Positions 311 through 25,181 of a DNA stretch of 25,433 nucleotides are shown here, in pieces; positions within the stretch are counted from its first letter, which is position 1, and each line of letters opens with the position of its first letter. The DNA comes from Plasmodium relictum (Eukaryota; Apicomplexa; Aconoidasida; Haemosporida; Plasmodiidae). The DNA lies in contig NW_021628626.1 of assembly GCF_900005765.1 (NCBI RefSeq), forward strand, positions 1 to 25,433, given 5' to 3'. The translations under genes were made by a program, and so were the position numbers. The notes beneath the pieces were generated by a model. It was not told the DNA's origin. It saw only the letters and a program-made list of their open reading frames with translations, and ran no database searches.

Positions 311-780
311 TGATTTATTAATTGCCCTCTTAATGACTTTGCTAGAGTATTAAACAAACAAATATTAATTGTTATAAATGAGTTTTTATTTACAAAGAAT
401 TACCTATTCTTTTAATTAAAAACATACAAATAAACTATAACAATTAATAAAGTCAAAACTTTATATTACTCAATGTTATTTCAAAATATACATTGATTAT
501 AACAAAACATTATTAATTTTATCTTTTATTTTTATAAAATATAATTTTTTTTTATTTACTAAAAATTTTCTCACACTAAAAAAAAAAATATATTTTTTTT
601 TATTTTTATTAGTGTCAGTACATATTAGTTTGTACATACATATACAATAAACTAGCTTAGTGCAGTACAAAAATTATAATATCCTTTGTTAATTGATCAG
701 TGCATGGGTAACTTGTATATACACATACAGTAACCTAGCATATCGTACTGAAAAAGGATAATAATAGCTTTTATTAACCA
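311..780 (-). mobile_element. solo LTR with internal deletions
   Basis: The element starts TGATTTATTAATTGCC and ends CTTTTATTAACCA, so it is the LTR family in minus orientation. A deletion joins the end module directly to ATTAATTGTTATAAATGAG near 362, removing about 150 bp. The same junction occurs in the inverted copy 24647-25181, so the two are copies of one deleted element. It carries the long form of the terminus, with a tandemly doubled terminal block. The expected downstream CTTGT duplication is missing at 781, so 780/781 is a rearrangement breakpoint. Confidence 0.82.
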
Positions 781-1245: not shown

Positions 1246-2420
1246 TGGATTTACTAATTGCTTGCTTAATGGCTTTGTTAAAGTATTAAACATACAAATA
1301 AAGAGCATACATAAATGAATATATTTTTTTAAATATATATATAATGTTTTCTTGTGATGCATAATATTTAATCGGAATTAAAACTTATTACATCTTTTAG
1401 TACATCTATCAATTGTTATAAATGAGTTTTTTTATTTACAAAGAATGAGTTTATTCTTTTAATTAAAAACATACATACAATTTATAACAATTAACAAAAG
1501 TCAAAACTGTAATTTATTTAATGTTATTTCAAAAATATACATTAAATATTACATAAACATTATACTTTTTCATTAAGTTTTTCATTTTTTTTAAGTAAAA
1601 AATTAATTCTCTTTTTAATTCGAACAGATGCCAGCTCACAAAAAAAAAAAAATTCATTTATTTATTTTTTTTTTTTAATTATAAAGAGGCATATACAATA
1701 AAATAAACAAAACAAAAAAAAATAACTTTATATATATATATATTTTTTTTTTTTTTTTAACTAGTGTTATTGCATGGTGGTTAATAAAAGCTATTATTAA
1801 CCTTTTTCAGTACAATATGCTAGGTTACCGTACGTGTATATAAAAGTTATCCATGCACTGACTGATTAAAAAAAGATATTGTAAATTTTTTCTAGTACAC
1901 TAAGCTAGTTTATTGTATGTTTATTTACAAACTAATATGTACTGATACTAATAAAAATAAAGAAAAAAAAAAAATACATATTTTTTGTTTGTTTATTTTG
2001 TTTTTGAAATATTCAAAAAAAAAAAAATATTTTTTTTCTTTTTTTTTGGCGAGAAAATTTTTAGTAAATAAAAATATATTTATCTTTTATAAAATTAAAA
2101 GATAAAATTAATAATGTTTTGTTATTATCAATGTTATATTTTGAAATAACATTGAATAATATAAAGTTTTGACTTTATTAATTGTTATAGTTTGTATGTA
2201 TGTTTTTAATTAAAAGAATAAGTAATTCTTTGTAAATAAAAACTCATTTATAACAATTAATAAGTCTATTAAAAGAGGCAATAAAATTTAACTTATAAAT
2301 GCTCTTTATTAATTTATTTGTTTAATACTCTAGCAAAGTCATTAAGCGGGCAATTAATAAATCAGACTTGTAAACTAACTTAATGTACTATAAAAGGTTA
2401 ATAACATCTTTTATTAACCA
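1246..2420 (-). mobile_element. solo LTR interrupted by a nested LTR
   Basis: The outer element runs from TGGATTTACTAATTGC (variant of TGATTTATTAATTGC) to CTTTTATTAACCA. With the nested element at 1778-2364 removed it is about 588 bp, the family length. Flanking pentamers ATATG (1241-1245) and ACATG (2421-2425) match at 4 of 5 bases and may be a decayed target-site duplication. The short-form terminus is seen. Confidence 0.83.
1778..2364 (+). mobile_element. complete solo LTR nested in another LTR
   Basis: This 587-bp element starts TGGTTAATAAAAG and ends CAATTAATAAATCA. It lies inside the CATGG of the host LTR terminus. The upstream CATGG is intact (1773-1777). The downstream copy is lost here, but CATGA is present at the equivalent place at 934-938. 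It carries the doubled terminal block (units at about 1778-1864 and 1868-1957). It has no open frame that looks coding; the 62-codon frame at 1917-2105 is low-complexity A/T sequence. Confidence 0.87.
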
Positions 2421-4563: not shown

Positions 4564-7500
4564 ATGAAAAAAAAAGAATGGATAGTTTATTTTACTCTTC
4601 TATATACCTTTTTTGGTAATGAAAAATATACATACGTATGAATTGTTATATTTCCTATATATATATTTCTATTGATATAATTGTTTTTTTATGTTATCAT
4701 ATTCATTAATTTTTATTATATATATACATAAATACATATATAGGTTTAAGTTATGAGAATAAGCTTAAAATATCGTCAAATAAATTTAAATCAAGTACAA
4801 AGAAACTATCATCAGATTGGAACTTAAAAAAAAATAAAAATTTAAACAATAATACTATAAAAAAATATAACGAAAAAAGGAAAAATGAGGAAATTATCAA
4901 TTTTCAAAGTAGTGGATATAAAAAAAAAATTAATAATTTAAAAAATGAAGTTAAAAAAAAATCATATTTATCTAAAATTTCATCAGAAAAAATAAAAAAT
5001 TCTATAATTAGAACAAAATCTCCATATTTGGTAAAAATAAAAAGAAATAATCCATATTCATTTGAAATAAATAATATCAAAGAAGAGAAAATAAAGAAAA
5101 CATTAAATGATATTATAAATTCTTTTATACAAACTAGAAATTTAGAGCCAATTGAATTAAATATTTTAACTGATTACAGTAGTTTAATTAGAACTATTGA
5201 CGAAAATTATACTAAAGTAAAAGACTTTTACATTAAAGCACATACGTATCTAAGCTATGGATCTTATTTATTACTTAATGATTATGCTAAAGGTGTATAC
5301 AAAAATTCTATAGAACCTAGTATTAATCAATTAATTAGTCAGATTAATGATGCAATACTCTTTTATGAATCATCAAGAAATGATATGAGAGAAAGATTAA
5401 ATAATTTACAACTTCAAAATGACAAGACACAGAACAACTTATACGATACAAAACTTAGTGAATTTAAAAGTAAAACAGAAGAAATTCTAAGTAAGGCAAG
5501 AAGTCATCTTGAAGATATTACTAAAATAAATGGAGTCATTTTTGATCGTGTAGCATATTATATGAAATATGTGACTCTTATCTCTAGGATTTATTTCGAA
5601 ATAGAAAAGATGTATAAAAAAAAAGTTTCTGATTATGTTAATAGGAATAGTTTAAATAGCAAAGTTCATGAAGACTTTTTAAAAGAAGTTGAAAATTTCT
5701 TGAATATTGATAATATTGCAAATTTTAAACAAAATAAATGTTATAAGAATAATATTAAATATAAAATTAAACTTCTAATGGAGGAAATTTCTGATATACA
5801 AAAGATTTATAAAGAAAACTTTAATTCTATATCCAAAAATCATGATATATTAGTAAATTGCAATAAATCTATGACCCCATGGACTGTAGAAGTATGGAGA
5901 TATTCGTGGCGTAGAGATGAATGTGTAGCAAACATTTTTATTCCTATGAACTCTTTGAGTTCAATTCAAATTTTAGAAGAATGTAATAGAAAATTAAGAG
6001 AAAAATTTGAAAAAAAAAAAAAGGATATTTCTGATTTATTCACAGTTACAGTAAAAGAATTGGAAGGAAAAATAAATTCTCTAGTTTATCCTGAAGATTT
6101 AGAATTAGAAAGTGAAAAAAATATTTCAAGTTCTCAAGAGATAATAAATAATGTAAAACTTACAATTAGTGAAAATTCAAGAAGTTTAGAAGATTTATCG
6201 AATAACTATCGTAGTGCAAAATTTTCTAGTATTAAAAATAAGCTTGCTCAATTATATGCCGAGGTAATTGTACATAATGATAATATGATAAGTATATTTG
6301 ACTCTATGAATGAGAAAAATAATTATATCAAATCTTCAAAGAATAAAATAGAAAATCTAAAAAGCAAAAGAATATCAACTCAAGAAGGAAACATAGAAAA
6401 GATAATAGATGGCCTATCAAATATAATAGAAAATGTTGAAAGTGAGATAACATTGATAAAAAGTAAATTTGATGCATTAAATCAGAATTATCTAGAATTA
6501 CAAGAGTTTAAAGATAAAATTGATCAATTAAAAACAACAATACAAGGAAATAATGATGAAATTCAAAGGTTAAAGAGAGAAGAAGATGAAAGTAAAAGAA
6601 AAATCATAGAGCAGATTGAGCAGGAGTTAGAAAAAATAAATATAAAAATAACTGACTTAAATGAAATCATGGGTTTAAAAGAAAAAGAAAATAAAGATCT
6701 TAAGATAATTGAAAAATTAATTAATGGAGCATCATGTGATATGAATAAATACATAGAAAAAAAAAAAGAAGCAAATGAAAAAATTAATTTAGCACTTAAT
6801 GCCTTAATTAGTAATGGGAAACTTGAAGCATGTAGGGAAATATCACATTTTGTAAATGAAAAAAAAAAAGAAAGAGGATTTGATTATACTTCATATGATT
6901 TAGATGATGTTAATAAAATATTAGAAGAAGTAAAGGAAAAATCTACTAGAATAGATAGTATTTCTAGTGAAACTACATCTATTATGGAAAATGATGTAAA
7001 ACCAGAAATAAATAATATTAGTCAACTTAAAAATGATATTATAATCAAATTAACTGAAGATTTATACAGTAAAATGAAAGATTTATTAGAAAATTTTAAT
7101 AAAATATTAGATAAAGTATCTAGAAGTATATCTGAATATGAAGCAAAAAAAGAAATACTAGAAAGTTATGAGCATAATATGATAAAAAAAAAAAATGAAT
7201 TTTTAAATAAACTTATTGAAGAAGATAATGAAATTCTAGAAGAAGAAAATATATTTCAAGAAATGTATCTTCAATCAATTAATTCTGATGATAAAAATGA
7301 AATAAATAAACAAATTGCTAATGCACAAGATATTATAATCACTCTAAAAGAACAATTAGATTTATGTAAGAATGTAGAGGTATTTTTTGATAAGCTTAGT
7401 GACACTAAAATTGATAATTTCAAAGCTTTAAAATTACGTATTAATCAAGAGATTATAGATAATTTAGATGAATATCAAGAAAGATTTAATAATATAACTA

Positions 7501-10500
7501 GTTCAATAGAAAGTAGTATAGAAACAATTAATTTATCAAAAAAAGTTATAGAAACTCTTAAAAATTTAAATAATATTATAAATGAATCCAATAATAATCG
7601 TAAATCGATTGAAGAATTAAGTAGAAATATAAATATTATAAAAGAAAAAATAAATGAGGAAATGGATATAATTAATAAAGAGACTTTAATAGGTGATATG
7701 AAAACTAGATTTTTGAATAATTTAGAAAACAAAAAAGGAGCTATAGAGGAAAAAAAAATAGAAATTGATAATTTAGGGGAAGAATTAATTTTATTATTAA
7801 AATATATTGAGACATTAAAAGAAAGTAATGGCAAAGTTAAATTTATTGGAGAAGTAGAACCCTACTTAAAAAATGCGTTAAGTAAAAAAAGAGAATTGAT
7901 AGATATTGTAAATAAAATAGAAGATATAAAATTAACAAATGATACATTGAATAAGGAAATTAATGATATAATTAAAAGTGTAAAAGCTCAAATTATAGAA
8001 TCAATTTATGGTCACATAATTAATTTGAATCAAGAGATAAATAATGAAGTGAATAGAAATTTGGATATTTTAAATCAAACAAAACAGACATTTGAAAATT
8101 CCAATTTTGAAATTAATGTAAAGGAAGATAAGATGAATAATAACAAACAAGAAATAAATTCAATAGTACAAAAAATTAAGCATTTTATAAGTAAAATTGA
8201 TGATAATAAGGAAAAATTGACAGCTATTCAAAGCAATTCTAAAGAGCAAGTTGTTGCAGCTCATATAATAAAAGAAAATAATAAAAATTTTAATGGCAAA
8301 AAAAGTAATATGAAAAGTCATTATGAAGAAATTAAAAAATTTTTAGATGAATTAAATACAGTAAAAAATGAATCAAAATCCTTAATAAAAGATGTAAATG
8401 CATTGAAATTAGAATATGAAAGATCAAAAGTATACGAAATTGTTCAACTAATTAGTGATGAAAAAAGAAAGTCCGAAGAAGATATGTTGAATATTAATGT
8501 ATTTAAAAATAAGATTGAAGACTTAAAAAAAAATACAGCAGAATTCATAGGAAATGAATTAAGAAGTTTTAATTATGAAGAATATCTTAATAAAGCTAAA
8601 AAGAACCAGGAACAAATAAATCAATTAGAAAAAAAAGCTAATACATTAAAAGAAGAGGCTTCTAATTCTGAAATAAAAGATGTTGAAAATATCAAAATGA
8701 AAGTTGAACAAAAAATGAAAGATATTATGGTTTTCAGGAGTGAAATATATGATTCATCAAATGAAATTAAAAACATGGAAAATTTATTAATGATGACAAA
8801 ATTTAAAAGCATTATGGATGACATAAAGAATAATATAAAAAAAGCTAGAGAAGAGAATGCAAATTTAAAAAGTAAACTTAAAAAATTAGATAATACAAAC
8901 AAATTAATATTAGATAATTTTCAAAAGTCAGAACAATTAAAAGGCTCAATTACTAGTAATTCTGAAGAAACTGTTATTAATGAAAGTGTGGATGAAATTA
9001 GAAAAATTAAAGAACTTATAGTAAATAATATAAGAAATATGGGAATATTTTCAATAGAAGTTGAAAAAAGCAAAGGAGCATCCTTATTGTATTTTCACAA
9101 TATAGTAAGAGGGAAAAATAAAATAGATTATTTGAAGAATCACGACCAAGATAAAGAGAAAAAAATAACAAAAAATATTATTGATGAAATAGATGGATAT
9201 ATACATGAATCTGAAGGTTATTCAAATGAAGCGAATAACATTGCTCAAACTTTTAATACAAGTTATGAGATAATATTAAATTATGAAAATAAGATTAGAG
9301 ATCTTTTAAATGAATCTTTAATCTTAGCCGAAAAAATAAAGATTGAAAAAGCAAAAGATGACGCAGAAAGTGTTATGAAAGAAATTCAGAATGTTTATTC
9401 TAGTTCTCAAAAATTGTTAGATAAATCAAAAGAAAAATTAAATGAATTAAATGTACAAACCAAAAACATAAAAGAACATAATGATGAAATAAATAATGAA
9501 AAATCCATGAATGCACTTGGAGAAATAGAAATTATCATAATAGATATAAATAGTATTTTATCAGATATAGAAACAATAAAAAAAGATATACAACATATTC
9601 TTAATACATCTGAGAATGAAATGGAATTATTTTCAACAATTCATGAAAGTAAAGAAAAAGATTTATTGAGTAGATTAAAAAAAGAACAAGACAATTTAAG
9701 AAATGCATTGAAATTTTTAAAAAAGATTAAAAATGAAAAAGATATTTTAAATCAAGAATCAAGCAAAATAGCAGATATAGAGAGTAAAATTAATAGTATA
9801 GAAAATAAGTTAGAAACTAATAAAAAATCCTACGAAGAAGGAATTTTGCAAAAGATTAAAAAATTAGCTGATCAAGACAAGGAATATATTTTGCGAATAA
9901 AAAATTCAATAAATTTAATAATTGATATCTCAAACTCCCTTTTTAAGAAATCTACATTAAAAGAAAATGATATAAGGCATCTATTGGAGGATTATGAAAA
10001 TAAAATGGAGGAAATAGAAAATAATTTTAATAAATCTTACAAAGCGATAGAAATATTTTTGGTAGAAGTTACAAAATCTTCTATAAGTTACGAAGAAGCA
10101 AAAAATAAAAGAGAAAAATCTCAAATGGAAACAAAAAATCTCCATGAAAGAAAAGAGGAAATGAAAATATTATTGAATGATATCAATAATTCTAAAAATA
10201 ACTTGACTTTAAAATTAATAACTAGTATGGAGAAAGATTTAAATAAAATAAATGAAAAATCTGAGAAAGATTATTCAAAAGTGAAAGAATACCTTAAAGA
10301 AATTGAAAAATATATTGAAAATATAAAAGGTTCTGATGATGTAAATATTGTTTTAAAAGAACTTGATAAAGCAAAAAATAAAGATAGAGAAATAAAAGAA
10401 ATTAAAAAAAATAATTTTGGTTATAAAAATGAAGCAGACATAATATATAGTAATATAATTGAAACAGCAAAATTCATTGATATGCATCTAGAAACCAAAA

Positions 10501-12770
10501 CAGAATTAGATGGTTATAAAGTTATTAGTAATTCCAAAGAGATTATTTCTAAAATACAAAATAATTCAAATGATATAGATAACAAAGAAAAAGAAAGCAA
10601 AGACTTCCTTACAAAAGCTAATAGTCTTTATGAACAAATAAAATTAAGAGATGAGTTAATAAAAATAATTAATGAAACAAAGCAAAAGCTAGATGACACT
10701 TCATATGAAATAGAATCTTCCTTTAATAAATTTAAAAAAATAAAAGAGATAAATGTTCATGACGTAATTTATGATGAAATTTTTAAAAATTATAAAGATT
10801 ATAAAAATTTACAAGAACTTAAAAATTCATTTAAAGAAAGATCAAGTAGAATAGAAAAAGAATTAAAAATAGATGAAATAAGAAAATATATTGATTATAA
10901 TAAGAACTCTATAAATTATATAGAAAAAATTATTTATACAACAAAGGGAGATGGATCTTCTACAAATATATTAGAGCAAGCAAGATTTGATATAAATATA
11001 CTTGTAAATAATGTGAATAATATATATAATAATATCTTAGAAGTAAATTCATCCCTTGATGAAATACTAAAAGTAGGAAAAAATTACGAATTATCTATTC
11101 TTTTATCAATTATTTCAATTCTTGATGTTGAAATATCTAAAGATATATTAATAATCAAAAAAAAAGAAAATGATATTGCATTAGATGTAGAATATGTGAG
11201 AAACAATTATAACTCTATAAATAGTGACATTGACATTTTAAATGAATATTCGACTAAAAATAAAATTAATAAATATGCATCAAATCATGTTGAAGAAGCA
11301 AATCTATATGAAGACAATTTTAAAGAAATGGAACAAAAAGTAGTGGAAACTATTGATAATATGAAAGAGGCATTTTTGACAATGAATAATAAAAAAAATG
11401 AAGATAATGTAAATGAATATCTGCAAGAGTTAAAAATTCTTTATAAACAACTCAAAAATGAAAAGAAGCATATAAATGATATTTATAGAAATATGAATAA
11501 TGTAAAACTAAAAGAAATGGAAAAAAAAGCTGATAAATTAATGGAAATGGCAAAATTATATAAGAATATAACAGATACTGTAAAACAAAAATTATTAGAT
11601 TATGAAAAAAAGTTAAAGCAAATTGAAGATTCTATAAGAGAAAAAGAGCATGAATTACTTTGTATTGAGTACATGAGTGCACAGTTATATATTCAAAAAG
11701 TTAATGAAACTTGTGAAGAAATTTCAGATCAAATTAATAAAATAAGTGAATTTGAAAATGACAATGATGAAAATAATAAAATTATAAAATATGAAGGAAA
11801 TATTATAAATTTAATAGAAAGGACAAATTTTTTATTAGATAAAGTTGAATTATACCAATATGAAAAAGATTACGATTTATCAGAAGAAGAAAATAATAAA
11901 AGATTAAGTGAAGTAAATAATTACATAGAAGTTATTAAGAAAAAAACAAATGAGTCAAAAAAAGAATTTGAAGATATATTAAATAATATAAAACAAATTA
12001 AAGAGACTTTGTTTAATAAAAATTATATTTTTCATGATATTTATAGTATTATAAAGAATATAAATGAAATAAAAGAAAATTCCCCAAAGAAGGCTATTGA
12101 AAAAGATATAGAAAGAAAAATAAAAAATCATTTAAATGAAATTAAAATAATAATAAATGAAAATCGAAATGATATATATAAAGAAATAAATGATACACAA
12201 AATGATAATGAACAATTAAAGAGCCAACAATTAATAATTAAAAATATACTGAAAAAAATCAAAGAAGAAAAAAAAAAAATGGACGAATTATTTAGTGACA
12301 TGTTATCAGGTGGAAATTCAAACACATATCCAAATATAAAAGCTTATTTAGAAGAGGCAGAAAAATTAATTAAAGAATTAGTATATAAAATAGATCAGAT
12401 AGAAAGTTTAATTAAAGGTAATAACATTGAAATAGAGCAATTAAAGGATCGAAATAATATAATGATAAAAAAAACAATTATGAAAAACTCTAAACATGAT
12501 AAACAAAAACAGGAATCGGATGAAACAGGTGATAATGAAAGAAATAGCAAAGGAAAGAATAAATTTTTTAATACCAAAACTGCATATGTAGGAGGCATAT
12601 TATGTTGTTTATTTGTTTGTTCTAGTATAGCTTTTGTCTTTTTAAATGAAGATAAATGTAAAGAAAATAATAGTGAAAAAATTAATTTATTTGATAATAG
12701 AAATGATAATGATTATGATATACATAAAGAAGAAATAATTGACGTTATTTTTGAAGATGAAATCTCTTAA
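4564..12770 (+). CDS. reticulocyte-binding protein (RBP/RH/NBP family), two exons
   Basis: The gene is spliced: exon 1 is 4564-4615, the 128-bp intron 4616-4743 is GTAATG...ATATAG, and exon 2 is 4744-12770. The junction falls in a Gly codon (G|GT) and keeps frame through 2692 codons to TAA. Exon 1 encodes a signal peptide, MKKKEWIVYFTLLYTFFG. A short signal exon followed by a very long exon is the classic RBP layout. The N-terminal domain has cysteines at about 350, 390, 411 and 431, around a PWTVEVWRYSWRRDEC block (394-411). Then follow some 2100 residues of Lys/Glu/Asn-rich coiled coil. One membrane helix (YVGGILCCLFVCSSIAFVFL, 2632-2651) and a 41-residue acidic tail end the protein. In this family such proteins sit in merozoite apical organelles and bind red-cell receptors. 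The frame is unbroken, including through A10-12 runs, so it is probably functional. The exact paralogue cannot be named. Confidence 0.93.
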
Positions 12771-13408: not shown

Positions 13409-13857
13409 TGATTTATTAATTGCCCGCTTGATGACTTTGCTAGAGTATTAAAAAACAAATTAATAAAGAGTATGTATAAATAAATATACGTTTATATATA
13501 TATACTTGTTTTATTATATATATAATGTTTTCTTATGATGCTTAATATTTAATTTGAATTAAATTTTACTTCATCTTTTAATAGACCTATTAATTGTTAT
13601 AAGTTTTTATTTACAAAGAATCAATTTATTCTTTTAATTAAAAACATGCAAACAAATTATAACAGTTAATAAAGTCAAAACTATAATTTATCCAATGTTA
13701 TTTCAAAAATATACATTGAATATTACATAAACATTATACTTTTTCATTCTTAATTTTTTATAAATAAAAGATAATTCTTTGTTTAATTCGAAAAACAAAA
13801 ACGTCAACCAACAATCCCCAAAAAAAAAAAAAAAATAATTTTTTTTTTTTAAATTAC

Positions 13858-14377
13858 TGGTTAATAAAAGATATTATTAACCTTTTTCAGTACACTAATA
13901 GGTTACAGATCGTGTATGTACAAGTTATCCATGCACTGATTGGTCAAAAAAAGATATTATAATTTTTGTAGTACACTAAGCTAGTTTACTGTACGTGTAT
14001 GTACAAATTAGTCATATACTGACATTAAAAAAAAAAAAAAAATTTTTTTTTTTTTGGGGAATTATTGTTTATTTGTTTTTGTTTCTTCGAATTAAATAAA
14101 TAATTAACTTATAATCTTAAAAATTTAAGATATAAATATATGAATAATATTAATGTAATATTCAATGTATATGTTTGAAATAACATTGAATAAATTATGG
14201 TTTTGACTTTATTAATTGTTATAATTTATTTGTACGTTTTTAATTAAAAGAATAACTAATTCTTTGTAAATAAAAACTTTTTTATAACAGTTTAACATAC
14301 TTATTGAAAGATTCAGTAAAATTTAAATCAAATTAAATATTATACATCATAAGAAAACAATATATATATAATAAAAC

Positions 14378-14438
<61 letters not shown>

Positions 14439-14521
14439 AAAATGTATATTTATTTATATATGCTCTTTATTAATTTGTTTATTTAATACTCTAGCAAAGT
14501 CATTAAGCGGGAAATTAATCA
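13858..14521 (+). mobile_element. complete solo LTR with 5-bp target-site duplication ATTAC
   Basis: This is the clearest reference copy of the family. It begins TGGTTAATAAAAGATATTA and ends AATTAATCA, with ATTAC on both sides (13853-13857 and 14522-14526). The interrupted host LTR is continuous across a single ATTAC when compared with uninterrupted copies. TG...CA ends with a 5-bp duplication are typical of retroviral-type integrase insertion, as in Ty3/gypsy LTR elements. The terminal 83 bp are tandemly doubled (13858-13940, 13941-14023). A (TA)n tract of about 56 bp lies at 14380-14435. No protein-coding frame is present. Confidence 0.9.
14380..14435. repeat. (TA)n microsatellite within LTR
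   Basis: About 28 uninterrupted TA dinucleotides occupy the position where other LTR copies have 5-12 TA units. The length difference accounts for much of this LTR's larger size (664 bp). Confidence 0.9.
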
Positions 14522-14683
14522 ATTACAAAGATGTATATAAATAAAAATAAACAAACAAAAAAAAAATTTATATATTTTTTTTTCTTTTTTTTACTAGTGT
14601 CAGTACATGTCTAATTTGTACATATACGATCAGTAACCTAGCTTAATGCACTGAAAAAGGTTAGTAATATCTTTTATTAACCA

Positions 14684-15048
14684 GCATGTTAAACTGTTAT
14701 AAAAGAGTTTTTATTTACAAAGAATCATTTTATTCTTTTAATTAAAAACATTCATATAATTCATAACAATTAACAAAAGTCAAAACTCTAATTTATTCAA
14801 TGTTTTTTCAAAAATATACATTGAATATAATATGAACATTATACTTTTTTATTCTTAATTTTTATGAGTAAAAGTTAATTCTTTATTTAATTCGAAAAAT
14901 AAAAATGTCAACCAACAATCCCCAAAAAAAAAAAAATAATTTTAATTTTTTTTTTTAACTAGTGTCATTGCATGGCTAACTTGTACATACACAACTAGTA
15001 AACTAGCTTAGTATACTACAAAAGGTTAATAATATCTTTTATTAACCA
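14684..15048 (-). mobile_element. partial solo LTR (minus orientation)
   Basis: The piece abuts the preceding LTR without a gap. It begins inside the family at ATGTTAAACTGTTATAAAAGAG and runs to ATCTTTTATTAACCA. The end module and the TA-rich third are missing. It has the short-form terminus, including the GCATGGCTAACTTGTA box. Confidence 0.82.
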
Positions 15049-15659
15049 GATGAATAATATTTAATTTGAATTAAATTTAACTGCATCTTTTAATAAATTT
15101 AAACAAATTAATAAAGAGCATGTATAAATAAATATAAGTTTTATATATATATATATTTGTTTTGATTATTTATATAATGGTTTCATATGATACATAATAT
15201 TTAATTTGATTTAAATTTTATTGCATCTTTTAATAAATATGTTAAATTATTATAAAGGAGTTTTTATTTAAAAAGAATAAGTATATTCTTTTAATTAAAA
15301 GAATATATATATTTTATAACAATTAACAAAAGTTAATCTCTAGTTCATTCAATGTTATTTCAAATATATACATATTGAATATTACATAAACATTATATCG
15401 TTTCATTTATTAAGTTTATATGTAAGTAAAATTAATTCTCTTTTTAATTCGAACAAATGTCAACAGACAAAAAAAAATAATTTATTTATTTTTTTAATTA
15501 CAAAGGCGTATATACAATAAAAATAAACAAAACAAAAAAAAAAATATAAAGTTATTTTTTTTTTTTTTTTTAACTAGAGTCAGTGCATGGCTAACTTGTA
15601 TATACACGATTAGTAAACTTAATGTACTATAAAAGGTTAATAACATCTTTTATTAACCA
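15049..15659 (-). mobile_element. solo LTR with rearranged 5' end
   Basis: 15049-15103 is a displaced internal piece (ATATTTAATTTGAATTAAAT, then ATCTTTTAATAAA). It joins TTTAAACAAATTAATAAAGAGCATG, after which the LTR is continuous to CATCTTTTATTAACCA at 15659. The outermost part of the end module (TGATTTATTAATTGCC) is missing. The repeated TTTAATAAAT at the junction suggests replication slippage or recombination between adjacent LTRs. Confidence 0.78.
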
Positions 15660-16789: not shown

Positions 16790-18180
16790 AAATTTTTTTT
16801 TATATTTTTTTTTGATTCGTTTGTACATTAATATAATGTAAATTACTAAAAGAGATAAAGTATATATAAATCGAATGCTTTGTGTAAAGTTAGACAATTT
16901 TTAATGCTACATATAATATACATGAATAAAATGATAAAACAAAATTAAGGGATGATAAAACTAATTTTAAATTACTTTTACATTTGTCATGAATTCTCTC
17001 ATTAAATTTTTTTTTTTATTTTTCTCTTTTATCTCAATTACATTTACATGTTTTAAATTTATATTTTCATTTATTTTATTTTTTTCTTTTCTTTATTCTA
17101 GATCTAATTCTATCATTATTTGATATTGACAAAATTTTAATACATCTTTTCTTTTTTTTCTTATATCTTTATTTTCTTCTAAGTATTATTTAGCTTCTAA
17201 ATCTAATGTACTTTTTAAATAATTTTTGTAATTCCACAATATAAAGGAAGATACTTAAGTGGTAAGAAAGCATTCAATATTTAGTTAATAGAAGAATGTT
17301 ATTAATCTTTTTAAATATAAAATTAGCTTACTAGTTGGGAAAATATAAGTCATTCATGCATTAATACTAGTTATAAAAATATATATATATATATAGCTGT
17401 ATTTTTTTTTATACATCTTTGTAATTTAAAAAAAAAAAAAGATTTAATTTTTTTTTTGTATTATTAATGTTTTTGAATTGAAATATTATTAATTTTTAAT
17501 TGAAAAATAAAAATTAACGTTTAAACAATATGTTTATGTCGTATTTGATTTGTATGTTTTGAAATAACATTGAATGACTTAGATTTTAATTAAGTTTTTT
17601 GTTATAAATTTTTTGTGTTTTTAATTAAAGGAATATGCATACTCTTTGTAAATAAAAATACATTTATAAAAGTAAACATATGCTTTCTAAGCAATAAATA
17701 ATTGTTTAATTCAAATTAAATATTATTTATTATAAAATGCTATTATATATATAATAAAATAAGTATATATATATAAAAATCCGTATATTTAGTTATACAT
17801 GCTCTTTATTAATTTGTTTGTTTAATACCCTAGCAAAATCATTAAACAGGCAATTAGTAAATCATATATTTAAAAGAAAAACAAAAAAGGTTTTTTTAAT
17901 ACTAATAAAATTATAATTTAAAAAAATAGTAGTAACAAAAAAAACATAAATATTTTTAAGTATTATTATTATCTTACATTATTAGAACATCGTAATATCT
18001 AAATTAAAAGGTTAAATGTAGAAAACATTATAAGAGAATTTAATATATTTTTTTTTCTTTTTTATTGTATATTTTTAAAGTTGCCATATTTGTAGTAATA
18101 AAGCCCTTAGATAAATGAGTATAGTACCTATAATGTATCTTAATATTAGGGGTAATCATATTATAATTTTTTCTGTTTAT
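16790..18180 (-). pseudogene. exported-protein pseudogene, paralogue of the gene at 19786, split by an LTR
   Basis: On the minus strand this region aligns with the intact PEXEL gene at 19786-20574, including its intron. Exon 1 remnant: about 18180 to 17978, sharing KIYNKKEKK and the donor context TTCTAATAAT|GTA. The intron starts at 17977 and is interrupted by the LTR 17282-17864. Exon 2 remnant: 17236 down to about 16790, starting WN and sharing the register of LK..L.L..K..L.ENK.I.K.R and CKxNxKLVL.S. Damage includes frame loss and a TGG-to-TAG change in exon 1, TAA at 17188-17186, a second TAA, and a frameshift near 16985. The first exon 2 stop replaces the Arg of the PEXEL (now stop-YLEE against RSLAE). 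The gene is clearly dead. It lies head-to-head with the intact paralogue. Confidence 0.82.
17282..17864 (+). mobile_element. full-length, diverged solo LTR inside a pseudogene intron
   Basis: This 583-bp element starts TAGTTAATAGAAGAATGTTA (decayed TGGTTAATAAAAG...) and ends CAATTAGTAAATCA. It has many more substitutions than the other complete copies, so it is probably old. It sits in the intron of the minus-strand pseudogene. Flanking AATAT (17276-17280) and TATAT (17865-17869) match at 4 of 5 and may be a worn duplication. Confidence 0.83.
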
Positions 18181-19785: not shown

Positions 19786-20574
19786 ATGAGAAGGAGAAGT
19801 AATTTTATCTGGAACATTTGTGTAAATTCTGGGTACTATTCCTATATAGGTGAAGATTGTATTGTTAAAGATATGTCAGCTTCAAAAATATACAATAAAA
19901 AAGAGAAAAAATATACATTAAATTTTTTTATATTTACCTTTTTAATTTGGATACTACAGTGTTCTAATAATGTAGGATAATAATGATAGTTAAAAATATA
20001 TATGTTTTTCTTGTTATTACCATTTTTTTGAATTAAAATTTTATTAGAATAAAAGAAGCATTTTTTATAATTCTGAATATATTTTTTGCTATTTTAGTGG
20101 AATTCTTGCAGATCATGGAATCACGAAAGTGACTTAAAAAATGTGCTAAATTTAGGAGATAAAAGATCATTAGCGGAAAATAAGGGTATAATAAAACAAA
20201 GAAGCGAAGGATTAAAATTATACGAAGAACAAGATATAATAGAGGTAAATTTAGACTTAGAGAATAAACAAATTGGAATAGGGGAAAATATAGATGCAAA
20301 ACAAGAAAATGAACAAGAGGAAAAAGGGGAAAATAAAAAATTAAAATTAAAAGAAAGTATTTTGGAAAAGTGTAAAAATAATTTCAAACTAGTTCTTTTA
20401 TCTATTCTTTTTATCCTATCTTTTATTTCACTTATATTTATTTTAATTGATTATTTTGATCTTGATTTGCAAAGGTTTTTGTGGGTTATTAGATCTTCTA
20501 AAATATCTATTTTAATACTTTCATTCCTTACATTGTACGAGCAAATAAAAAAAAAACGTAATAATAAATCTTAA
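19786..20574 (+). CDS. PEXEL-containing exported protein with C-terminal membrane segments, two exons
   Basis: Exon 1 is 19786-19971, the intron 19972-20097 is GTAGGA...ATTTTAG, and exon 2 is 20098-20574. This gives 220 residues plus TAA with the splice between codons. Residues 46-59 (NFFIFTFLIWILQC) form a recessed hydrophobic signal. The PEXEL export motif RxLxE is R85-S-L-A-E89, shortly after the splice site, as in many Plasmodium exported proteins. A charged Glu/Lys-rich stretch follows (91-158). Two hydrophobic segments are at about 159-180 and 197-209, with a short basic tail. The layout recalls small two-exon, two-membrane-segment exported families such as Pfmc-2TM, and the subtelomeric fam families of avian malaria; I cannot assign the family. 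A decayed paralogue on the opposite strand (16790-18180) conserves the exon-intron structure, which supports this model. The substrate or partner is unknown. Confidence 0.86.
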
Positions 20575-21350: not shown

Positions 21351-21929
21351 TAATTAATAAAATATGTTATTAACCTTTTGTAGTACCCTAAGCTAGTTTA
21401 CTAGTCGTGTATGTAAAAGTTATCCATGCACTGACTCTAGTTAAAAAAAAAAAAATATAAAGTTATTTTTTTTTGTTTGCTTATTTTTTATTTATATACA
21501 TCTTTGTAATTAAAAAAAAAAAAAAATTAAATTTATTTTTTTTTTTTATTGACGTTTGTTTTTCGAATTAAATAAAGAATTAACTTTTACTTATAAAAAC
21601 TTAATATATAAAACGAATGATGTTTATGTTATAATTAATGTATATTTTTGAAATAACATTGAATAATTTAAAGTTTTGACTTTATTAATTGTTATAATTT
21701 GTCTGTATGCTTTTAATTAAAAGAATAACTTATTCTTTGTAAATAAAAACTCATTTATAACAATTAATAGGTCTATTAAAAGATGTAGCAAAATTTAACC
21801 TATATTAAATATTATGCATCATAAGAAAACTATATATATATATAAACGTATACTTAGTTATACTTGCTCTTTATTAATTTGTTTTTTTAATACTCTAGCA
21901 AAGCCATTAAGCGGGCAATTAATAAATCA
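21351..21929 (+). mobile_element. complete solo LTR with 5-bp target-site duplication AAAGC
   Basis: The 579-bp element starts TAATTAATAAAATATGTTAT (TGG mutated to TAA) and ends GGCAATTAATAAATCA. It is flanked by AAAGC at 21346-21350 and 21930-21934. It has the short-form terminus with one terminal block. The flanking coding-like frame is in phase across it. Confidence 0.9.
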
Positions 21930-22048: not shown

Positions 22049-22538
22049 TGACTAATAAAAGATATTATTAACTTTTTATAATACAAAATTAATTTACTAA
22101 TCAGGAAAATGCAAGTTAACTGTGCCTTGCCGCTAGTTAAAAATATATATATACATATATATATATATTTATATTTTTTTTTGTTTATTTTATTTATATA
22201 TATTTTTGTCATTTTTTTACTTGTTTTTTTTTATTGATGTTTTTTTTGAGAGATTATTAATTTTTAATTAAAATATAAAAATTAATATGAAAGATATAGT
22301 TTTTATAAAGTATTTTATTTGCATATTTTGAAATAATATTGAATATCTTGGAGTTTAATTTTTGTTATTTGTTACAACTTAAATTTTTTTTTTTTTTATT
22401 TAAAGGACATAATTATTTTTTGTAAAAAAAAATACATCTGTAAAAGTAAAAATACATCTGTTAGGCAACACATAATCGCTTAATTCAAATTAAATGTTAT
22501 TATAATAAAAATAACTATATATACTAAAAATTCGTATA
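22049..22538 (+). mobile_element. solo LTR lacking its 3' end module
   Basis: The start TGACTAATAAAAGATATTATTAAC and the internal order fit the family, but the copy is heavily diverged. It stops at AAAATTCGTATA, where other copies continue TTTAGTTATACATGCTCTTTATT. Instead the end module in reverse orientation follows at 22539. Confidence 0.72.
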
Positions 22539-22614
22539 TGATTTATTAATTGCCCATTTAATGACTTTGCTCAGGTATTGATGAGCAATGTAATAAAGAG
22601 CATTTTTATAATGT
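22539..22614 (-). repeat. LTR end module in reverse orientation
   Basis: TGATTTATTAATTGCCCATT, ATGACTTTGCTCAGGTATTGA and AATAAAGAGCA are present, then the complete minus LTR at 22615 begins. The module replaces, in flipped orientation, the end module missing from the plus LTR 22049-22538. Confidence 0.7.
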
Positions 22615-23235
22615 TGATTTATTAATTGCCAGTTTAATAACTTTATTAGAGTATTTAACAAACAAATTAATAGAGCATGTATAACTAAGTATACGTTTAT
22701 ATATATATATATTATATATATTCGTTTTTATTATATATATAAGTTTTCTTATAATGCATAATATTTAATCTGAGTTAAATTTTACTGCATCTTTTAATAA
22801 ACCTATTAATTGTTATAAATAAGTTTTTATTTACAAAGAATTACTTGTTCTTTTAATTAAAAATATACAAGCAAACTATTAGAATTAATAACGTCAAAAC
22901 TTTAAATTATTCAATGTTATTTCAAAAATATATATTGAATATAATATAAACATTATTCTCTTATCTCTTAAGTTTTAATAAGTAAAAGTTAATTCTTTAT
23001 CTAATTTTTAAAAATACCAACGTCAAAAAAAAAAAACAACAAAAAAAAATAATTTCAACAACTATTTTTTTTTAATTACAAAGATGTATATATAAATAAA
23101 TAAACAAAAAAAAAATAACTTTATTTAATTTTTTCTTTTTTTTAACTAGCGTCAGTGCATGGCTAACTTATATGTACATGACCAGTAAACTAGTTTAGTA
23201 TACTAAAAAAGGTTCATAACATATTTTATTAACCA
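22615..23235 (-). mobile_element. complete solo LTR (minus orientation)
   Basis: This 621-bp copy runs from TGATTTATTAATTGCCAG to ATATTTTATTAACCA with every landmark of the family and the short-form terminus (GTCAGTGCATGGCTAACTTA). Flanking AATGT (22610-22614) and AATAT (23236-23240) match at 4 of 5, a probable decayed target-site duplication. Confidence 0.86.
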
Positions 23236-23863: not shown

Positions 23864-24529
23864 TGGTTAATAAAATATGCTATTAACTTTTTGTAATACA
23901 CTAAGCTAGTTTACTAGTCGTGTATGTACAAGTTAACCATGCACTAACGCTAGTTAAAAAAAAAAAGAAAGATATAAAGTTATTTTTTTATTTGTTTGTT
24001 TTATTTTATTTATATACATCTTTGTAATTAAAAGAAAATTAAAATCATTTTTTTTTTTTTGGAGGATTGTTGGTTGACGTTTTTGTTTTTCGAATTAAAG
24101 AAAGAATTAACTTTTACTTATAAAAACTTAAGAATGAAAAAGTATAATGTTTATGTTATATTTAATGTATATTTGTGAAATAACATTGAATAAATTAGAG
24201 TTTTGACTTTTGTTAATTGTTATGTATTGTATATATGTTTTTAATTAAAAGAAAAAACTGATTCTTTGTAAATAAAAACTCTTTTATAACAGCTAATAAG
24301 TCTATTAAAAGATTCAGTAAAATTTAATATCCAAATTAAATATTATGTATCATAAGAAAACATTATATATATATATAATAAAAACAAGTATATATATATT
24401 TAAAAACGTATATTTATTTATACATGCTCTTTATTAATTTGTTTGTTTAACACTATAACAAAGTCATTAAATAGACAGTTAACAAATCAATACCCTAGCA
24501 AAGTCATTAAACAAGCAGTTAATAAACCA
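23864..24529 (+). mobile_element. solo LTR with a partly doubled 3' end module
   Basis: The LTR starts TGGTTAATAAAATATGCTAT and reaches a first end, CAGTTAACAAATCA, at 24490. It then repeats part of the end module (ACCCTAGCAAAGTCATTAAAC...CAGTTAATAAACCA) to 24529. It has the short-form terminus and all internal landmarks. The extra 39 bp could be slippage or a second LTR end joined by recombination. Confidence 0.83.
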
Positions 24530-24646: not shown

Positions 24647-25181
24647 TGGTTAATAAAAGCTATTATTAACCTTTTTCAGTACAATCTGCTAGGTTACTGT
24701 ACGTGTATATACAAGTACCCATGCACTGACTGAGTAACAGAGGATATTATAATTTTTGTAGTACACTAAGCTAGTTTAGTGTATGCGTATGTACAAACTA
24801 ATATGTACTGACGCTAATAAAAAAAAAAAAAATATATATATATATATTTTTTTTTGTGTTTGTTTATTTTGTTTTTGAAATATTTTAAAAAAAAAAAAAA
24901 ATAATTTTTTTTTTTTGGTGAGACATTTTTAGTAAATAAAAATTTAATTATCTTTTATAAAAATAAAAGATAAAATTAATAATGTTTTGTTATAATCAAT
25001 GTATATTTTGAAATAACATTGAGTAATATAAAGTTTTGACTTTATTAATTGTTATAGTTTATTTGTATGTTTTTAATTAAAAGAATAGGTAATTCTTTGT
25101 AAATAAAAACTCATTTATAACAATTAATATTTGTTTGTTTAATACTCTAGCAAAGTCATTAAGAGGGCAATTAATAAATCA
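24647..25181 (+). mobile_element. solo LTR with internal deletion and target-site duplication ACAAG
   Basis: The element begins TGGTTAATAAAAGCTATTA and ends GGCAATTAATAAATCA, flanked by ACAAG at 24642-24646 and 25182-25186. It has the doubled terminal block. A deletion joins CAATTAAT to ATTTGTTTG near 25131, the same junction as in the inverted copy 311-780. It splits a coding remnant without changing its frame. Confidence 0.9.

Follow-up and report, generated by a model that had tools for sequence, protein, structure and literature searches.

The repeat that fills much of this stretch of Plasmodium relictum DNA is almost certainly the long terminal repeat (LTR), about 500-660 bp long, of a Ty3/Gypsy retrotransposon family, here called family B, that is primed by tRNA-Ser(GCT) and inserts by TG...CA ends at 5-bp staggered cuts, with T three bases before the duplicated pentamer, T(-3), and A three bases after it, A(+3). 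The same reading, held as firmly, is that most copies are solo LTRs, that they are often nested, and that some LTRs have been exchanged between loci. The window, by which we mean the whole stretch analysed, is one entire contig of 25,433 bp, and the genome searched for repeat ends and domains comprises 22.60 Mb in 514 contigs. The earlier note on this DNA had inferred a subtelomere; the contig is unplaced, and a subtelomeric position is likely.

Twenty-nine LTR pieces longer than 60 bp lie in the window, 27 from family B and two of them weak matches to another LTR family. The earlier note had counted about two dozen whole or partial copies; the true number of copies is below 27, some pieces being parts of one copy and a few of the 27 being weak. 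Together they cover 8,559 of the 25,433 bp (33.7%), with none inside the open reading frame (ORF) at 5028-12770. Pieces of note are given in the table.

Table. LTR copies and target-site duplications (TSDs) in the window.
Feature	Position	Strand	Remarks
LTR 3' part, cut by contig end	1..245	+	
LTR with chimeric flanks	311..780	-	upstream flank like C360 element, downstream like 24647-25181
Older LTR interrupted by 1778-2364	1247..1777, 5' part 2365-2420	-	
LTR inside minus-strand LTR 1247-1777/2365-2420	1778..2364	+	without intact TSD
Older LTR, 3' part, interrupted by 13858-14521	13409..13857	-	5' part is 14527-14683
5-bp target duplication ATTAC	left copy 13853..13857, right copy 14522-14526	.	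around 13858-14521
Solo LTR, family B, 664 bp	13858..14521	+	TSD ATTAC; internal ~83-bp tandem duplication of 5' end; nested in older minus-strand LTR
5' part of LTR interrupted by 13858-14521	14527..14683	-	3' part is 13409-13857
LTR copy, 3' end incomplete	14694..15048	-	
LTR copy	15101..15659	-	
Old LTR copy, without exact TSD	17282..17864	+	
Solo LTR, exact TSD AAAGC (21346-21350/21930-21934)	21351..21929	+	5' end TA, not TG
Diverged LTR copy	22049..22547	+	
Solo LTR, TSD 4/5 (ATATT/ACATT)	22615..23235	-	
LTR copy, without exact TSD	23864..24489	+	second 3' end motif at 24529
Solo LTR, exact TSD ACAAG (24642-24646/25182-25186)	24647..25181	+	inserted in short gag-pol remnant
LTR 3' part, cut by contig end	25247..25433	-	

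The three exact duplications that the earlier note had read from the letters (ATTAC, AAAGC and ACAAG) are all where it placed them, and its near match at 22615-23235 is indeed four of five. Its other examples did not hold. CATGG at 1773-1777, offered as a fourth duplication, is not repeated where that LTR ends on its far side (2364|GACTT). The supposed sister junction at 934 reads CATGA and follows a different LTR fragment, and the two could not be tied to a single insertion. The near match at 17282-17864 agrees at one of five bases in register, and the one at 1246-2420 belongs to a composite, a minus-strand LTR interrupted by a plus-strand one. TG...CA ends, claimed for the whole group, occur in many copies, the one at 21351 being an exception. 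The claim of no internal coding was nearly right: tblastn of four element frames against the window listed no match at 1e-5, but the insertion at 24647 sits in a piece of gag-pol.

To count duplications in a wider sample, LTR ends were set by short terminal motifs in the window and in loci chosen for reverse-transcriptase or LTR matches, and same-strand ends 400-800 bp apart were paired. An exact 5-bp TSD flanks 25 of the 73 candidate pairs, where 5,000 shuffles of the flanks yielded 0.83 on average and never more than 6; none of the 73 was dropped, and at least 12 of them begin falsely at a duplication within the LTR's 5' end, while a few others pair the wrong ends. In the same pairs an exact duplication of 4 bp was found once and one of 6 bp never. 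The internal duplication, a tandem repeat of about 83 bp seen in the window at 13858-14022, produces a false 5' start in other copies too. Twenty further copies were picked by similarity and near-full coverage alone, independent of the TSD: seven have an exact 5-bp duplication and 12 match at four or more of five bases (shuffles: mean 0.55, maximum 6 in 10,000), while 13 are without an exact one. Two of the 20 are preceded by a purine tract and are thus 3' LTRs of elements. The earlier note had proposed that copies elsewhere in the genome should carry 5-bp duplications, and in the part of the genome read this proved correct in both samples.

The copies with exact TSDs number 33 and have 33 distinct flanks. 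By a strict criterion 22 of the 33 have a related unoccupied site; in 19 the alignment is ungapped around the junction, and some of the matches are weak. This count of 22 replaces one of 27 obtained by a looser criterion. For the other 11 no unoccupied relative appeared in the DNA searched. When the flanks of the copy at 13858-14521 were joined, 27 matches spanned the junction, and the best is ungapped near it.

The bases around the duplications are not random. The set of 33 includes the copy at 13858-14521, added by its true ends since the motif had mis-ended it. T(-3) is present in 30 of the 33 (binomial p 3.8e-10 against local composition) and A(+3) in 29 (p 1.4e-8). The preference was replicated at ends not selected by a TSD, from which PBS- or PPT-joined ends and exact-TSD copies had been removed, with T(-3) at 46 of 55 (p 5.7e-11) and A(+3) at 47 of 57 (p 1.6e-9). 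Within the pentamer T is rare at the first base (2/33, and 5/55 at the ends chosen without a TSD) and A at the last (2/33 and 6/57; p <=3e-5 for each of the four counts). A dyadic integrase complex would be expected to give just such symmetry, and the symmetric T(-3)/A(+3) target preference is new here. The HIV-1 consensus in PMC4422553 has a 5-bp duplication, and the positions that the paper numbers -3 and +7 are T and A; according to the same source, four viruses whose duplications are 5 bp long disfavour T and A at the two end bases of the pentamer. Family B has the same length of duplication, the same two preferred outer positions and the same avoided pentamer bases as these HIV-1 integration sites (PMC4422553), a likeness that is a parallel of mechanism only, not of kinship, and that was measured in family B against an A+T-rich background.

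The LTR belongs to a coding element. Three complete arrangements, each on one strand, read 5' LTR, PBS, gag zinc knuckle, pol, tail, PPT and 3' LTR (C7, C14 and C346; the first is 5,703 bp long), and the earlier note's proposal that copies should flank reverse-transcriptase/integrase frames is borne out by these three, in the right order and strand, in the part of the genome read. None of the three has an exact TSD (AGTAT/AGAAA, CATAT/CCATC and AATAT/TCTAC), so that insertion is not directly shown there; with LTR pairs that differ by 11-17%, age or exchange may explain this. At E <=0.001 the genome has 90 profile matches to RVT_1 and 45 to rve. A pol frame of 864 residues on C266 carries, by Pfam, a protease (34-129), reverse transcriptase (253-415), RNase H (478-606), H2C2 (693-751) and rve (772-864), the last at 31.7 bits, just under the cut-off of 32.6. 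This is the Ty3/Gypsy order of protease, reverse transcriptase, RNase H and integrase, and it rules out Ty1/Copia, in which integrase precedes reverse transcriptase. A retrovirus with env was likewise rejected: the pol tail stops just 141-151 bp short of the 3' LTR in all six cases with enough flank, one of which (C172) has a weak tail match (34%). Three of the nine tract matches were not used for this spacing, two being on pieces too short and one a chance match inside pol. A single tail frame of 209 residues gave no Pfam match when examined for a chromodomain, a search that could miss a diverged one, and Pfam returned nothing for the pol tail, the gag piece or three window ORFs.

A purine-rich tract of the GTGGAGTA type, a putative PPT, stands directly before the LTR. 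At the other end the PBS is antisense to the tRNA-Ser(GCT) gene, which lies on C14, plus CCA; in nine leaders, 14-18 of the first 18 positions match. The nearest described relative is a Ty3/Gypsy retrotransposon of P. gallinaceum, to which the C266 frame is 70% identical over residues 5-864 (the database protein being taken as PGAL8A_00410600). Both elements are about 5.7 kb long, and a PBS for tRNA-Ser(GCT), 15 nt in length, is reported for the P. gallinaceum element as well (PMC5880244); its LTRs, in contrast, are reported as 459 and 469 bp. Judged by eye, the first gag residues of family B resemble those of the P. gallinaceum polyprotein.

These observations bear on three other accounts of the repeat. 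A non-autonomous LTR element of the TRIM or LARD kind, mobilised in trans and with no genes inside, would agree with the lack of attached internal sequence in most copies, but the same LTR flanks coding gag-pol in three complete and several partial arrangements, which leaves this account only a slight chance; no complete LTR-PBS-PPT-LTR unit lacking gag-pol came up incidentally among the loci read. Slighter still is the prospect of a simple subtelomeric satellite, or a block of segmental duplication, spread by recombination rather than by integrase. Copies do cluster, the chimeric flanks of one window copy suggest ectopic recombination, and both ends of the contig are inverted 3' parts of the LTR followed by the same ten bases. 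A spreading block would nonetheless not be expected to give 33 distinct flanks around 33 exact-TSD copies, a duplication of exactly 5 bp rather than 4 or 6, unoccupied relatives in pol frames, or copies joined to PBS, PPT and gag-pol; the unoccupied sites and the duplications already refute it. A short palindrome-like stretch in the 5' end might speak for terminal inverted repeats, and so for a DNA transposon or MITE, but this account is given a negligible probability. The gag-pol anatomy already refutes it, and the TG...CA ends, the PBS and PPT junctions and the same-strand direct repeats around gag-pol all stand against it. Integrase-mediated LTR insertion, as the earlier note had proposed, is supported by the excess of TSDs together with LTRs that flank reverse-transcriptase/integrase frames.

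Short end patterns detected 1,653 3' ends and 1,446 5' ends of the family in the genome, with none for the reversed-pattern controls, in accord with the hundreds of copies that had been predicted. Only 55 3' ends run into a primer site, and the purine tract stands before only 67 of the 5' ends, from which it follows that most copies are solo. The solo excess of about 20- to 30-fold is an upper estimate, since the PBS- and PPT-joined patterns are longer at an equal mismatch limit. Solo LTRs are normally formed when the two LTRs of one element recombine. The joined flanks of the 33 exact-TSD copies matched a family B LTR in eight cases, a family A LTR (see below) in four, family B internal sequence in five and family A internal sequence in one, and 15 matched none of the references; these counts are no measure of targeting, the loci having been chosen for element content.

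The LTR at 311-780 has flanks from two places. Its upstream flank is that of the C360 element (locus L033) with one mismatch in 60 bases, and its downstream flank is that of the copy at 24647-25181 with none in 60, which suggests a product of exchange between loci. The upstream flank is itself LTR sequence, and the arrangement may also have arisen by separate insertions at the same position of related LTRs, two in number, and a later deletion.

What has been observed is the identity of the LTR, the anatomy of the element, the duplications, the bases preferred at the target, the excess of solo copies and one case of chimeric flanks; the enzymatic steps and the route of recombination are what we infer. 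Integrase would cut the target with a 5-bp stagger and join the TG...CA ends to it, and new copies would often land in older LTRs or pol frames. The insides of most insertions would then be lost by recombination between their own two LTRs, leaving solo LTRs, many with an intact TSD, and LTRs at separate loci would at times recombine to give chimeric flanks.

The sequence between the 5' LTR and the gag ATG, the leader, resembles the primer tRNA far beyond its end. Against antisense nt 19-59 of tRNA-Ser(GCT) the nine leaders match at 301 of 369 positions, compared with about 148 when the downstream sequence was shuffled; against nt 60-85 the figure is 104 of 234 (control 92.5). A standard PBS of 18 nt and nothing more was rejected, as the match extends well past 18 nt. 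Two of the nine leaders came from a search with a tRNA pattern, and an inverted LTR interrupts a third; the six others match at 28-36 of the 41 positions of nt 19-59, and position by position they agree well to nt 53 and poorly at 54-57. In two leaders, L032 and L071, the match reaches nt 59; in L071 its final two bases run into an A tract. In 7 of 8 leaders tested the ATG follows 63-74 nt after the AT adjoining the LTR. Four family A leaders compared with tRNA-Ser(GCT) matched at no more than 3 of 18 and 0 of 41 positions, and tRNA-Leu compared with the family B leaders matched at no more than 19 of 41, about the shuffled level.

The leaders differ in their fidelity. L071 (on C29) and L072 (on C109) are exact copies of the tRNA over 59 and 44 nt, and six leaders (L032, L033, L035, L042, L044 and L048) are diverged, with a GGG to AAA block and two extra bases in common. 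The gag starts of C29 and C109 are 92.7% and 92.3% identical to those of L033 and L044, which have diverged leaders; these are pairwise identities and not a tree. Among the 55 ends joined to a primer site, five (C29, C139, C440, C109 and C437) overlap a 48-nt tRNA match, found with two adjoining patterns that each allowed a single mismatch.

On balance we favour, with real reserve, the reading that the leader is a copy of the 3' part of the primer, antisense to tRNA-Ser(GCT) from the CCA mostly to nt 53 and in two cases to nt 59, just before G26, and that it is at times rewritten by plus-strand copying far past A58. It would then span the CCA, the T arm, the variable arm and the anticodon loop. 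That the two elements with exact leaders are near relatives of elements with diverged ones suggests that the tRNA is sometimes re-copied far past the usual stop; in the simplest reading, reverse transcriptase would at times copy the primer well past A58, to about G26, and so rewrite the leader. G26, the proposed stop of this over-extended copying, carries a dimethyl modification in many eukaryotic tRNAs. Retroviral copying normally stops at m1A58, and short over-extensions are known (PMC13191261). The lentiviral case described there resembles family B in that plus-strand copying of the tRNA goes beyond the 18-nt PBS and is matched by sequence downstream of it; the lentiviral products, however, end at nearby T-loop modifications (pseudouridine 55 and m5U54), whereas the family B match reaches antisense nt 53-59, through the anticodon loop (PMC13191261). 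New here is that the leader, directly before the start of gag, is antisense to its primer over 53-59 nt rather than the usual 18 or so; if confirmed, a tRNA-derived leader would extend the rule by which synthesis of the plus strand ends 18 nt into the primer. Two other tRNA-like stretches were observed. At L039:328-373 (C48) two inverted LTR ends enclose some 40 nt of tRNA-Ser with CCA, likely an aberrant product of reverse transcription, and C217:140-187 is a tRNA-Ser-like stretch with no LTR end listed beside it.

A second family, A, was seen at L034, L038, L040 and L046, with an LTR of about 450-520 bp, its own pol and its own primer-site sequence; a candidate primer tRNA for it was located by pattern at C1:246593-246611. 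Similarity between the LTRs of the two families was rejected: apart from the 3' terminus, the LTR of a second-family element on C6 is no more like that of family B (71.1%) than a reversed control is (70.5%). The C6 element shares the genome and, by tblastn, the Ty3/Gypsy pol order with family B, but its pol is 55% identical and its primer-site sequence different. It is probably the retrotransposon of P. relictum chromosome 6 that PMC5880244 calls the most complete, with LTRs of 253 and 257 bp. Self-comparison of the C6 element gave LTRs of about 512 and 451 bp, and if it is that element, the published LTRs may be truncated. LTR pairs are 83-89% identical in the three complete family B elements and 89-98% identical in three family A pairs, by which family B looks the older.

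Ty3/Gypsy retrotransposons have been published for P. relictum and P. gallinaceum (PMC5880244). The class of element is therefore already known for P. relictum, and the earlier note's description of the repeats as remarkable for Plasmodium was overstated. The main text of that paper has no occurrence of "solo", "target site" or "TSD", and PMC9141347 has none of "solo" or "target site". Among the papers listed by our literature searches we recognised no description of solo LTRs, TSDs or a long tRNA leader in these parasites. Read together, the 5-bp TSDs, the two-base target signature and the large solo excess document how copies were inserted and recombined in a Plasmodium genome, and so show both the integration and the disappearance of an avian-malaria retrotransposon family.

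Dense repeats of this kind could mediate exchange between invasion-gene loci, and the window has such a gene as well as an LTR whose flanks look exchanged. The gene is the large ORF at 5028-12770, which over the 600 residues searched is 100% identical to "reticulocyte binding protein, putative [Plasmodium relictum]" and has no match in Pfam. A smaller ORF at 20143-20574 encodes 143 residues with a hydrophobic stretch and no Pfam match, and is possibly an exon of a subtelomeric family gene.
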